The notes beneath the pieces are model-generated. The model saw only the letters and a list, made by a program, of their open reading frames with translations. It was not told where the DNA came from and did no database searches. From the NCBI RefSeq assembly GCF_009764355.1, contig NZ_LNUA01000061.1, positions 4,198 through 68,197 on the forward strand: a DNA stretch of 64,000 bases, given 5' to 3'. Made by a program: the position numbers and the translations under genes. The stretch is from Companilactobacillus bobalius (GTDB lineage Bacteria > Bacillota > Bacilli > Lactobacillales > Lactobacillaceae). Positions 2,467 to 64,000 of the stretch are shown here, piece by piece (position 1 is the stretch's first letter; each line of letters starts with the position of its first letter).

Positions 2467-2498
2467 GCTTTAAATAACCATTGTTCTATGTTTAATAG

Positions 2499-2624
2499 TG
2501 GAAACGAGCTCCACAAGGGCAACCCATTCCGGTTTGCTACAGTACTGAAATTGCCCGCCAAGTACGCGTTCGATTTCAGTACTTAGGCAAATTCTCGTGG
2601 GCTAAACGCCCCTGCTTCGCTCTC
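2499..2624 (-). repeat. Interspersed hairpin element, family 1 type A
   Basis: Read on the minus strand it opens GAGAGCGAAGCAGG and closes near GGAGCTCGTTTCCAC, like the copies at 51467, 52484 and 43252. The inner arms AGTACTGAAAT and ATTTCAGTACT pair, followed by the conserved GTAGCAAACCGG. It occupies almost all the space between the terminator at 2466 and the promoter region of the flavodoxin gene. Confidence 0.85.
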
Positions 2625-43138: not shown

Positions 43139-43251
43139 GTCCTTTCACTTGTTTAATTGTTCGATTGAATAAACATAGTTTACAAGGAAGATGGCGAAGT
43201 AACTACTTAGGTTCGATAAGGTTTTTATAAGAAAATCTTAGAAAGAGGAGA

Positions 43252-43366
43252 GGGTTCCACAGACCCGGGAATTTCCGAGGATTTGCCTAAGTCCTGGAAT
43301 CGCCCGCGAATTGTGCGAGCAATTTCAGGACTGTAGCAAACCGGAAGAAATTGGTCTGTGGAACCC
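43252..43366 (+). repeat. Interspersed hairpin element, family 1 type A
   Basis: Perfect 14 bp outer arms GGGTTCCACAGACC / GGTCTGTGGAACCC. Next come AATTTC / GAAATT and the inner arms AGTCCTG / CAGGACT around GCCCGC...GCGAGC. The outline equals that of the other copies, but the arm sequences differ in a paired way. Confidence 0.9.
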
Positions 43367-43427
43367 GTTTAAGCAGCATACTTGAGAAACATAGCCAGAC
43401 CGAGAAGATTTAAATCAATAAAAGAAC

Positions 43428-50761: not shown

Positions 50762-51463
50762 ATGAAAACTATGTCAGTTTCAAAACCAAAGAAGCAAAAG
50801 AAAACAATGGCGGAACGTTCGAATACCCTTCGTGCTGGTGTATTAGGATCTAATGATGGGATTTTAACCGTTGTCGGAGTACTATTTTCCGTTGCTGTTG
50901 CTACAACCAATACCTTTACAATTTTTATTGCCGGTTTGTCAGATCTTTTAGCATGTGCTTTTTCAATGGCTTCTGGGGAATACGCCTCAGTTAGCTCTCA
51001 AAAGGATACTGAAAGAGCTGCAATTGAAAAAGAACGTGAATTGATCAAAACTAATTATCAAGACGAACTAGACGTAGTAGCTAATTACTATGTAGAACGT
51101 GGCGTTAAAAAAGATACTGCTAACAGCATTGCCAAAGAATTGATGGAAAAAGATGCTTTAGGAACAGTAGTAAGAGTTAAGTATGACCTACAATTAGGAC
51201 ATTACATGAGCCCATGGGATGCAGCCTTCTCATCATTAGTGTCAGCTGCGTCAGGTGGTATTTTCCCATTAGTAGCAATGACATTGTTACCAGCAGCAAT
51301 AAAATGGCCAGGAACAATATTAGCCGTAACATTATCAGTTGCTCTAACCGGATATTTAAGTGCCAAGTTAGGAGACGGATTAGTTAAAACCGCCATTATT
51401 AGAAATGTTATTGTAGGAATAATTACCATGGCAATACACTATTCAGTCGGATTAATGCTATAA
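50762..51463 (+). CDS. VIT1/CCC1-family Fe/Mn transporter (copy 2)
   Basis: A 233-residue paralogue of the preceding protein with GSNDGILTVVGVLFSVA and MASGEYASVSSQKDTER, and the same five-span plan. The two may form a heterodimer, since the pair is coupled on one transcript. AAGGAGG precedes the ATG. A family 1 hairpin element begins 3 bp after its stop. Confidence 0.9.
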   Translation: MKTMSVSKPKKQKKTMAERSNTLRAGVLGSNDGILTVVGVLFSVAVATTNTFTIFIAGLSDLLACAFSMASGEYASVSSQKDTERAAIEKERELIKTNYQDELDVVANYYVERGVKKDTANSIAKELMEKDALGTVVRVKYDLQLGHYMSPWDAAFSSLVSAASGGIFPLVAMTLLPAAIKWPGTILAVTLSVALTGYLSAKLGDGLVKTAIIRNVIVGIITMAIHYSVGLML

Positions 51464-51466
51464 AGC

Positions 51467-51590
51467 AGAGAGCGAAGCAAGCCCGGGAATTTCCGAGGAT
51501 TTGCCTAAGTACTGAAATCGCCCGCGAACTATGCGGGCAATTCCAGTACTGTAGCAAACCGGAAGAAATTGGCTTGCGCAGCTCGTTTCC
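51467..51590 (+). repeat. Interspersed hairpin element, family 1 type A
   Basis: AGAGAGCGAAGCAAGCC to GGCTTGCGCAGCTCG. GCAAGCC / GGCTTGC, AATTTC / GAAATT, AGTACTG / CAGTACT and GCCCGC / GCGGGC all pair. It starts 3 bp after the second VIT gene's stop. Confidence 0.9.
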
Positions 51591-51677
51591 ACTATATTGC
51601 CAAGTACATTGGTTATTCTAAAATAGAAGGAAAACACATTACGGAATGAAAGAACTACAACATTAAATAAAATAGAA

Positions 51678-52123: not shown

Positions 52124-52159
52124 TATTATTTTACATAGATATGAGAAGGAGATTGAATG

Positions 52160-52483
52160 ATGGCTAATATTACAGAATTATCAGATAAGACATTCAATGA
52201 CGAGACAAGCAAAGGTCTAGTTATTACAGATTTTAATGCAGACTGGTGTCCTCCATGTAAAATGATGAACCCAATTCTTGAGAAGTTATCATCAACAGAT
52301 GAGTTAGGCGATAAGATCAAGTTTACATCAATGAATGTAGATCATAATCCAGATACACCAAATAACTTTGGAATCCAAGGAATTCCTACATTTATCATCA
52401 AGAAAGATGGTAACGTAGTAGGACGTATGGTTGGATATCAACCAGAAGAGAAGTTCCGTTTAGAACTAGAGAAATATATGTAG
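52160..52483 (+). CDS. trxA: Thioredoxin
   Basis: 107 residues with the active site DWCPPCKMM (WCPPC instead of the more usual WCGPC), the cis-Pro segment QGIPTF and KKDGNVVGRMVG. A small disulfide reductase of the cytoplasm. Two consecutive ATGs (52157 and 52160); the second has better spacing from AAGGAG. The divergent CsoR-family repressor with operators in between suggests control by reactive sulfur or thiol stress. A family 1 element begins at its stop codon. Confidence 0.93.
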   Translation: MANITELSDKTFNDETSKGLVITDFNADWCPPCKMMNPILEKLSSTDELGDKIKFTSMNVDHNPDTPNNFGIQGIPTFIIKKDGNVVGRMVGYQPEEKFRLELEKYM

Positions 52484-52602
52484 AGAGCGGAGCAGGGGCG
52501 GTCAGCCCACGAGGATTTGCCTAAGAATTGGAATTAGCCGCTGAACTTGCGGATGATTTCAATTCTGTAGCAAACCGCAATGGGTTGCCCCTGCGCAGCT
52601 CA
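52484..52602 (+). repeat. Interspersed hairpin element, family 1 type A
   Basis: GCAGGGGC / GCCCCTGC outer arms, AGCCCA / TGGGTT next, AGAATTG / CAATTCT inner arms. The TAG stop of thioredoxin runs straight into AGAGAGCGG. Confidence 0.9.
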
Positions 52603-52610
52603 TTTAAAAC

Positions 52611-52735
52611 AGAGAGCGAAGCAAGCCTGGTTAGATTCTGAGCAATTTGCAGGACTTTGCGAAATGACTGCGCAGCAGCCAGTTTGTGAAGTCAGGCAAA
52701 GCACAGGAATCTGGCTTGCATAACTCGTTTTCACT
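52611..52735 (+). repeat. Interspersed hairpin element, family 1 type B
   Basis: AGAGAGCGAAGCAAGCC left end shared with type A, right arm GGCTTGC. Interior differs: AGATTC / GAATCT, TTTGC / GCAAA, GACTT / AAGTC. It is directly after the type A copy. Confidence 0.85.
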
Positions 52736-52884
52736 ACAAACCATAGAACCATGGTTATTAAAAAAGTAACCATTCTACTCCAAGATTAAAAGCTCCTCCA
52801 AAAGAAATTGTTAAACCAATAAATATAAAAACTACTTAAATATAAGAAATACACTAAAAATTAGACGAATATAAGTAATAAAGT
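52736..52884. other. A/T-rich spacer without a gene
   Basis: Only a 12-codon frame and a short TGGTTA / TAACCA hairpin can be seen. Together with the two repeats it fills the 540 bp gap after thioredoxin. Confidence 0.5.
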
Positions 52885-62417: not shown

Positions 62418-62458
62418 TAATTAAATAATCATAATTTTTATTAATGGGGGATATTAAA

Positions 62459-63886
62459 ATGACAGATCGTATTGAATTATCAGCATGTACATCAATCATG
62501 GTTGGTAAGAAAGCTTCGATGGATGGAGCAACTTATATTTCAAGAAATGAAGATCGATTGAATGCTATTTATAGAAAACGTATCATCGTTCAACCAGCTG
62601 TTTCTGGACGTGACGAAACTTATGTTTCACCATATAACAAGATGACAGCACCATATCCTACAAGTGGCTATCGTTACACGTCAACACTTGATGCCAACCA
62701 AAGTACAGGACCTAACGAAGAAGATGGTTTCAATGAAAAGAACGTTGGTATGAGTGCTACTGAAAGTGTTTACGCTAATGAAAAAGTTTTAGCTTTTGAT
62801 CCATACGTAAAGAATGGACTAGCTGAAGATTCACTTGCAACCTTAGTTTTGCCATACATTAACTCAGCACGTGATGGAGTTAAATATCTTGGTAGATTAG
62901 TTGCTAAATATGGTTCTGCTGAAGGTAATGGACTTCAATTCAATGACAAAGATGAAGTTTGGTACATGGAAGTAGTAACAGGACATCAATGGGTTGCCGT
63001 ACGTATTCCTGATGACTGCTATGCCGTAGCCGCTAACCAAGTAGCCATTCAAGATATCGACTTCAACGATCCTGACAATTACATGTGGGCCGATGGAATC
63101 CAAGAATTTGTATCAGAACATAACTTGAATCCAGACTTCGACCGTTGGGACTTCAGACATATTTTTGGAACAGATACCGAAAAAGACCATCATTACAACA
63201 CACCAAGAGTATGGTTTGCACAACGTTATTTGAACCCATCAATTGAACAAGATCCAGAGTCAGCAGAACTACCATTTATCAGAAAAGCCGAAAAGAAGAT
63301 TGCTGTAGAAGACATTCAATATCTATTGAAGTCACATTACAACGAAACAAAATACGATCCACTAGGCAGTGGTAGTGAACATGACAAGAAGACATATCGT
63401 GCTATTTCACTATCAAGAACAGCCAACTCCCATATCCTTCAAATGAGAGATTCAGATAAGAATGGAGCAGCCGGAGTAGAATGGACAGGATTCGGAATTC
63501 CAAGCTTCTGCCCACAAGTACCATTCTTTACAAATGCCAATGACATTGATGAGTCATACAGCTACACACCAGAGAAGATGGATCTAAAGAGTGCATATTG
63601 GATGTATGAAGCCTTAGCAATGGTAGTAGAAAGTCACTACAAAGAATTCGTAGAACCAAACCTAGATTATCAAAAAGCATTGTCAGAATGGGCAAGAAGA
63701 AAGATTGCAGCAGTAGATGAAAAAGCAGTCAAAATGACAGGAGATGCCCTAACAGATTACCTAACAGAGCAAAACCATGAAATTGTAAAACATTACAATG
63801 AAGAGACAATGAAACATCTAGCAGATTTGGTAACACAAGGAACAGAGTTAAGTAAGTTAACATTCAAGATGGATCCAAATCTTTAG
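62459..63886 (+). CDS. pepD: C69-family dipeptidase PepD
   Basis: 475 residues from the ATG at 62459, with GGGGG at the right distance; the ATG at 62444 overlaps that box. Cys10 in ELSACTSIMVGKKASMDG is the N-terminal-nucleophile cysteine of the C69 family, followed by SRNED. The bulk is the Ntn-hydrolase fold (for example WYMEVVTGHQWVAVRIPDD). It hydrolyses a wide range of dipeptides in the cytoplasm, complementing the OPT importer. Its stop overlaps a family 1 element. Confidence 0.92.
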   Translation: MTDRIELSACTSIMVGKKASMDGATYISRNEDRLNAIYRKRIIVQPAVSGRDETYVSPYNKMTAPYPTSGYRYTSTLDANQSTGPNEEDGFNEKNVGMSATESVYANEKVLAFDPYVKNGLAEDSLATLVLPYINSARDGVKYLGRLVAKYGSAEGNGLQFNDKDEVWYMEVVTGHQWVAVRIPDDCYAVAANQVAIQDIDFNDPDNYMWADGIQEFVSEHNLNPDFDRWDFRHIFGTDTEKDHHYNTPRVWFAQRYLNPSIEQDPESAELPFIRKAEKKIAVEDIQYLLKSHYNETKYDPLGSGSEHDKKTYRAISLSRTANSHILQMRDSDKNGAAGVEWTGFGIPSFCPQVPFFTNANDIDESYSYTPEKMDLKSAYWMYEALAMVVESHYKEFVEPNLDYQKALSEWARRKIAAVDEKAVKMTGDALTDYLTEQNHEIVKHYNEETMKHLADLVTQGTELSKLTFKMDPNL

Positions 63887-64000
63887 AGAGCGAAGCAGGC
63901 CCGCTTAGATTCTGAGCATTTGCAGGACTTTGCGAATTGGCTGCGTAGCAGACAGTTCGTGAAGTCAGGCAAAGCACAGGAATCTGGCCTGCGCAGCTCG
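63885..64000 (+). repeat. Interspersed hairpin element, family 1 type B
   Basis: GCAGGCC / GGCCTGC arms, AGATTC / GAATCT, TTTGC / GCAAA inner pairs, as in the copy at 52611. It begins in the PepD stop codon and reaches the window end, so its right flank is not seen. Confidence 0.85.

Follow-up and report, generated by a model that had tools for sequence, protein, structure and literature searches.

A large stop-proximal hairpin repeat of Lactobacillaceae, REP-like and probably kept as a structured RNA in mRNA 3' untranslated regions

Introduction

The EFAR repeats of Enterococcus faecalis, a member of the Lactobacillales, are palindromic and modular, lie near gene ends and replace stem-loop targets. 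Among bacterial dispersed repeats, those of the REP type are as a rule short palindromes of DNA linked with a transposase. According to the accessible text of PMC12306157, which cites Liang 2015 on this point, ribosomes have been reported to stall at E. coli REPs that lie near a stop codon, with cleavage of the mRNA as a consequence; in the same text, only 446 of 4,072 predicted REPs of E. coli are within 15 nt of a stop, and 260 of 496 are quoted from an earlier study. In the available part of PMC3733652, GTAG REPs are described as often providing the TAG stop codon, and EFAR is listed among the MITEs. The BOX repeats of Streptococcus pneumoniae follow the sequence order boxA-boxB(n)-boxC. 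In the portion of PMC3049150 at hand, they are presented as modular elements whose central part varies in copy number, whose transcripts are predicted to fold and which are over-represented between convergent genes; their hairpins at 3' ends have been proposed there to block exonucleases.

In the present work, an interspersed hairpin element was analysed in a window, i.e. the whole 64-kb stretch of Companilactobacillus DNA under study, and in related genomes. In contrast to the usual REP-like repeats, this element has a large, multi-loop fold that is mainly one-stranded. We consider it probable (about 0.68) that the element is an interspersed, REP-like repeat and that Lactobacillaceae keep it as a structured RNA in the 3' UTRs of their mRNAs, and a modular repeat that is gained and lost is the best reading of the data.

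Results

Copies in the window

The window was searched with a covariance model, R1, the seed of which consists of 43 units. The six copies of a 115-125 bp element listed in the first-pass annotation were all recovered, at 83-130 bits (Table 1). The four copies that belong to the seed match by construction, and the two type-B copies lie outside it. R1 gave 11 matches in the window; the other five, on the opposite strand, are echoes with weaker scores, and one of them spans the interior alone. The inner arms quoted in the first-pass annotation are right for the four copies with a type-A interior; 52612 and 63886 carry a different, type-B interior. When each copy was compared with 100 dinucleotide shuffles of itself, all six folded better than every shuffle (z -4.0 to -9.0).

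Table 1. Units of the element, their tails and the adjoining genes in the window
Feature	Position	Strand	Sequence features	R1 score
Conserved 3' tail of unit 2502	2473..2501	-	CCACTATTAAACATAGAACAATGGTTATT	
Unit 2502, type A	2502..2624	-	Outer arms GCAGGGGC/GCCCTTGT; inner arms AGTACTG/CAGTACT	114 bits, in seed
Unit 43250, type-A interior	43250..43370	+	Outer stem a continuous variant, GGGTTCCACAGACC/GGTCTGTGGAACCC; inner arms AGTCCTG/CAGGACT	118 bits; 43258-43370 in seed
VIT1 family gene (PF01988), ORF upstream of unit 51468	50762..51463	+	Stop TAA	
Unit 51468, type A	51468..51588	+	Starts 4 nt past the TAA stop; inner arms AGTACTG/CAGTACT, as in 2502	130 bits, in seed
3' tail after unit 51468	51589..51617	+	CCACTATATTGCCAAGTACATTGGTTATT	
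Thioredoxin gene (PF00085)	52157..52483	+	G of the TAG stop is the first base of unit 52483	
Unit 52483, array unit 1, type A	52483..52605	+	Inner arms AGAATTG/CAATTCT	122 bits, in seed
Linker joining units 52483 and 52612	52606..52611	+	AAAACA, six bases	
Unit 52612, array unit 2, type B	52612..52730	+		83.5 bits, outside seed
3' tail after unit 52612	52731..52759	+	TCACTACAAACCATAGAACCATGGTTATT	
Peptidase C69 gene (PF03577)	62444..63886	+	G of the TAG stop is the first base of unit 63886	
Unit 63886, type B, incomplete at the window end	63886..64000	+		89 bits, outside seed

A covarying fold

With a strict pattern, 236 units (234 of them distinct) were collected in 168 clusters; copies that have decayed escape this pattern, as does 43250 with its variant shell. 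In 230 of the 234 distinct units the length is 112-127 nt, and the unit forms one long hairpin. Its outer part consists of a 4-bp helix P1 (GAGY/RCTC), a 3x3 purine-rich internal loop (GRA/GNA) and a helix P2 of about 7 bp. Further in come a one-sided bulge of 4-5 nt, helix P3, more internal loops and an inner hairpin. The covariance alignment of 43 units covers type A and its relatives in Companilactobacillus and one related bin, the Levilactobacillus and pantheris types being set apart, and some of its internal-loop positions carry invariant letters. Both sides have changed in 30 of the 39 predicted pairs. Pairing is kept in 95.6% of cells, a share that falls to 74.7% after column shuffles and to 32-40% on sliding one side, and cells with a double change number 379, against a mean of 113 in the column shuffles and 31-67 in the slid controls.

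Covariation was then assessed by a tree-preserving, R-scape-like test of our own, based on an average-product-corrected G statistic, in which the null came from 40 simulations redistributing the parsimony substitutions along a FastTree tree. Fifteen of the 6903 column pairs exceeded every null score and 14 of these fall within the 39 predicted pairs; the fifteenth (columns 40-90) involves an internal-loop position beside a helix. The first-pass annotation had proposed that the structure is kept while the sequence changes, and this is borne out by the kept pairing, by the both-side changes and by the significant covariation of 14 helix pairs in this home-made test. A lack of significant covariation, named at first pass as a refuting outcome, was not what the test gave. 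The helices drift or are exchanged with compensation.

Strand preference of the fold

The two arms of each of the 234 distinct units were aligned in a strand-neutral way, and the isolated mismatches were counted. On the GAGAG..CGTTT strand, G.T outnumbers A.C by 273 to 61, a ratio that is raw with respect to kinship; G.A was found 94 times against 5 for C.T, and A.A 43 times against 3 for T.T. Folded as RNA, the same strand is the more stable one for 215 of 230 units and, among representatives of less than 75% identity, for 37 of 38; DNA folding parameters give the same bias (223/230 units). The window copies 51468 and 43250 are exceptions in which the minus strand folds more stably. A double-stranded cruciform would give no strand bias, so that the strand-specific retention of mismatches disfavours a DNA cruciform, whereas single-stranded RNA or single-stranded DNA would fit. 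Among the three options offered at first pass, a structured RNA and a REP-like repeat fit the data and the cruciform is disfavoured.

Placement behind stop codons

Gene neighbours could be assigned for 149 of the 168 clusters, the other 19 being dropped for want of a called neighbour on one side; 20 of the 149 overlap a mechanically called ORF. A co-directional gene precedes 135 of the 149 clusters, and 110 begin at most 10 nt after the stop of such a gene or overlap it: 68 start after the stop, 38 share one base with it (the G of TAG) and 4 overlap by 10-22 nt. In a random intergenic control drawn from the named loci (at least 120) and the window, in which one-base overlaps are impossible, 2.7% of 9018 trials were equally stop-proximal; when the clusters are restricted to the named loci and the window, the figure is 81 of 111. 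The adjacent stops, in 108 listed cases, are TAG 67 times, TAA 40 times and TGA once, for a background of 27%, 63% and 10%, respectively. In the C. kimchii genome (G046, 1.83 Mb), 10 of 16 clusters are stop-proximal and, by the RefSeq annotation of one L. plantarum plasmid, celB ends on the first base of the element. In the window, units 51468, 52483 and 63886 abut a stop. The other three of the six units, and two of the five clusters, do not start at one: 2502 sits between two + strand genes and has no co-directional gene upstream, 43250 also has none, and 52612 follows another unit in its array.

A terminator was detected within 260 nt behind the element in 47 of the 135 sense copies, against 1 of the 14 others and 3 of 745 shuffles; where one is detected, the copy lies upstream of it. 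The simple terminator scan detected none behind the other 88 of the 135.

Arrays, tails and exchange of modules

Units occur singly or head to tail, and the last one is often followed by a clade-typical tail. Sixty-one of the 168 clusters are multi-unit, 54 with two and 7 with three strict-pattern units, joined by linkers of 1-9 nt. By eye, the 5' junction is an A, with mixed bases before it, followed by GAGAG. Around C. paralimentarius the tail reads CCACTAT(N5)ATAGAACNATGGTTATT and in others TAGAGCCACTGCC; tails of other kinds occur in Levilactobacillus and L. pantheris, and the C. suantsaicola copies have no common tail (all by eye). The tails, of which three are in the window (2473-2501 on the minus strand, 51589-51617 and 52731-52759), are similar within a clade and differ between clades, a pattern which suggests, from sequence comparison, that they may have been replaced in concert at many copies.

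Modules also differ at orthologous sites. At the site of 2502, the 5' arm of the outer module ends in GGGGC or AGGGC in the window and in G046, and in AGGCC in another genome (G001), while the inner arms AGTACTG/CAGTACT are common to all three, with a few substitutions closer to the loop. The seven genomes compared all have the element behind the C69 peptidase gene, with differing interiors. The first-pass annotation did not mention that the element is tightly linked to stop codons and lies in sense orientation, that units form head-to-tail arrays with a clade-specific 3' tail, or that whole modules are exchanged.

As a separate observation, three loci (L240, L242 and L244, in G008, G021 and G006, respectively) carry behind the C69 peptidase gene or a paralogue a variant shell, AGCGT.. 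/ ..CGCGTTT, that is devoid of the 3x3 purine loop by eye.

Filled and empty sites

Upstream flanks from other species were compared with G046. Of 26 comparisons, 3 were excluded as C. kimchii against itself, and among the 23 alignable flanks that remained two (L016 and L089) match one and the same G046 site. Behind nine of them, G046 has a unit that fits the strict pattern. Behind the other 14 it has none that fits; judged by eye, these 14 comprise 6 truncated, decayed or pattern-missed copies and 8 empty sites. The empty-site comparison suggested at first pass thus yielded both the 8 empty sites and one clean filled/empty pair (L015). In C. paralimentarius this site consists of the stop, two units, a degenerate tail and then a terminator; in G046, about ten bases separate the stop from the same terminator, which is intact behind the element in the filled partner. 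No target duplication is evident in this pair.

The orthologous site of 2502 is filled in G046 and G001. At that of 43250, G043 and G019 have units with the ordinary shell, and the copies of G046 and G001 are truncated by eye; the VIT1 site is filled in four genomes and holds remnants in two (by eye). Three elements (G043 32336, G019 59510 and G019 71964) were found in a single genome among those compared. Recurrent internal deletions leave mainly the shell.

Two other dispersed sequences were noticed in the same surroundings. One begins with TGCCGTCNTCCG, has GGAACGC further in, and is found in the window from 43428 and at 21 other loci, including L286, L333, L358 and L370; in G046 it occupies three sites where relatives bear the hairpin element, once a few bases past a likely stop. 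The other is long and structured-looking, contains motifs including GACCGGTTCGAGCC and CTCGATTTTGAGCTT, and was seen at L295 (G044), L200, L205 and L213, at or near stop codons where relatives bear the hairpin element.

Distribution

R1 found copies in 35 of the 36 genomes of the genus, and in 70 of 151 genomes and 20 of 40 genera of the family, with a single match in several genera. The element, for which confinement to the window had been named at first pass as a refuting outcome, is thus widespread. These genome counts include opposite-strand echoes and were taken among the best 100 candidates per genome for the genus and the best 23 for the family; within the genus, the matches per genome range from 0 to at least 100, echoes included. 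By BLAST, relatives were found in 19 of the 36 genomes of the genus, against 35 by R1, so that conservation is stronger for the fold than for the sequence. A pattern scan of the named genomes, over at least 120 stretches, placed the element in Companilactobacillus species, Levilactobacillus parabrevis and fuyuanensis, Lacticaseibacillus pantheris and two uncultured Lactobacillus bins.

Among 395 genomes of the order, 21 contain the bare outer-shell pattern, 8 of them at least 10 times, and the reversed control is found at most once per genome. Two other families of the order account for three of these 8 genomes (G147, G171 and G089). At six loci inspected by eye, the units of the other families have unlike helices and a common geometry, i.e. 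2 nt, 4 bp, a 3x3 loop, 6-7 bp and a one-sided bulge, the 6-7 bp helix being interrupted in one of the six. Of 30 order-wide pattern loci, 12 matched the pattern without the fold and were rejected by eye as chance matches.

At gathering scores, Rfam 15 gave no match on the window and none on the copies in 20 further loci, where it detected three known RNAs elsewhere than on the copies. Eleven low-threshold Rfam matches in the window are all under the gathering score and were discarded; a microRNA-like one, at 63912, corresponds to the interior of a unit. No description of the element was found in Rfam 15 or in the open-licence literature searched, as judged by listings.

Plasmids were searched with four queries: one of type A matched 2 L. 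plantarum plasmids, one of type B matched 5, and the two others matched none; one query gave no match among phages. On mobilizable plasmids of L. plantarum, NZ_CP046664.1 and NZ_CP073269.1 among them, the element lies behind celB, which codes for a PTS cellobiose transporter. Mobilizable plasmids are a possible route between genera.

Candidate movers

Two families were examined as candidate movers. Y1/HUH transposases (PF01797) are encoded in 18 of the 36 genomes of the genus and do not track copy number: no match was obtained in the copy-rich G003, G007, G009, G010 and G016, and full-length ones are present in the copy-poor G049, G013 and G002. Reverse transcriptases (PF00078) do not follow copy number either. 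Both families were set aside as movers for this lack of correlation. A classical MITE has terminal inverted repeats, a target duplication and a cognate transposase; at the ends of the present element, complementarity is limited to the 4 bp of P1.

Discussion

In the reading that we favour, in which a REP-like repeat persists as structured RNA within 3' UTRs, the element would be transcribed together with the upstream gene and would fold at the terminating ribosome. Once folded, it could alter the fate of the mRNA, most likely either by shielding its 3' end from exonucleases or by slowing ribosomes at the stop, or both; this effect is proposed by analogy with what has been reported for stop-proximal E. 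coli REPs. Copies may be spread or homogenised by recombination or by an enzyme acting in trans.

It is unlikely, but worth serious attention, that the element is purely selfish, a MITE or REP moved as folded single-stranded DNA by a hairpin-recognising transposase and having no role as RNA. Its closeness to stops would then be a choice of target, with a 5' junction ending in A and followed by GAGAG that often completes a TAG. The presence or absence of the element among relatives and the clean filled/empty pair agree with this view, as does the excess of TAG at adjacent stops (67/108 against 27%), which is partly made by the junction itself; TAG stops are also provided by GTAG REPs (PMC3733652, in the part available), and single-stranded DNA would account for the strand bias obtained with DNA parameters. 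However, several copy-rich genomes gave no PF01797 match, several copy-poor ones have it in full length, other intergenic occurrences of this short motif would be expected to serve as targets too, and one site is filled in the seven genomes compared.

A bolder proposal, which we hold to be quite unlikely, is an order-wide and as yet unnamed class of mobile structured RNA, comparable to SINEs, in which the folded transcript rather than the DNA would be the recognised unit. An equally speculative part of this proposal is that the recogniser would be the translation-termination machinery, or else a dedicated RNA-binding or RNA-templated enzyme. If true, it would explain the precise placement at stops, the sense orientation and the RNA-type covariation.

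Doubt is greater still about a regulatory or stabilising 3'-UTR RNA adopted by the host, inherited vertically at set genes and homogenised by gene conversion, with mobility playing a minor part. The C69 peptidase site, filled in 7 of 7 genomes, the VIT1 site, with 4 filled and 2 remnant copies by eye, and the invariant internal-loop letters of the 43 units are in agreement with such a role, whereas by eye G046 lacks the element at 8 of the 23 alignable sites, some elements are found in a single genome, and the R1 matches vary from 0 to at least 100 per genome, echoes included, within one genus.

The palindrome could in principle be maintained without selection, template switching in a DNA cruciform copying one arm to the other and giving a false compensation. 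At the site of 2502, both outer arms do change type between G001 and the window or G046 while the inner AGTACTG/CAGTACT stays constant, as arm-copying would have it, but this process would remove mismatches, and internal loops and wobble pairs persist, mainly on one strand; the strand asymmetry largely refutes it and we give it very little credit. An ordinary intrinsic terminator would also be a hairpin positioned behind a stop codon, but the element ends in CGTTT and a clade-specific sequence with no U-tract, and a separate terminator lies behind 47 of the 135 sense copies, so that this last explanation can practically be discarded.

The repeat preferred here, REP-like and kept as RNA, is of interest in several respects. 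One model finds its fold in 20 of 40 sampled genera of lactobacilli, with tens of copies in many genomes, mostly abutting a stop. More than 200 distinct, alignable natural variants offer a test of the action of stop-codon hairpins on termination, ribosome rescue and mRNA decay. The hosts are bacteria of food and gut, and the spread of such a repeat without an evident transposase is itself a question.

In comparison with known systems, the element resembles the structured RNAs of Rfam in its covarying helices and conserved internal-loop letters, and neither the window copies nor those of the 20 further loci correspond to a family there at gathering score. It shares with BOX, compared by description alone from the portion of PMC3049150 at hand, a modular build and an occurrence in Lactobacillales; it differs from that description in that every unit makes up a whole hairpin, shell included, and lies in sense orientation behind stops. 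EFAR replaces its stem-loop targets, whereas in the one clean pair the terminator is intact behind the present element. The element also resembles REPs and BIMEs, which are likewise high-copy intergenic palindromes, occur in arrays and lie close to stop codons. REPs and BIMEs measure 20-40 nt, against about 115-125 nt here, and the units stand head to tail, unlike the alternating orientation of BIMEs in the descriptions available. The REP carries a GTAG/CGTC tag at one end, whereas TAG occurs here with a preceding G that is not fixed (by eye). RAYT-associated REPs have a cognate Y1 transposase, and the present element shows no correlation with Y1; its fold is mainly one-stranded, multi-loop and common to several genera. 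The element works like a stop-proximal REP, yet it stands outside the tagged, RAYT-linked REPs by its length, its tag and its relation to a transposase.
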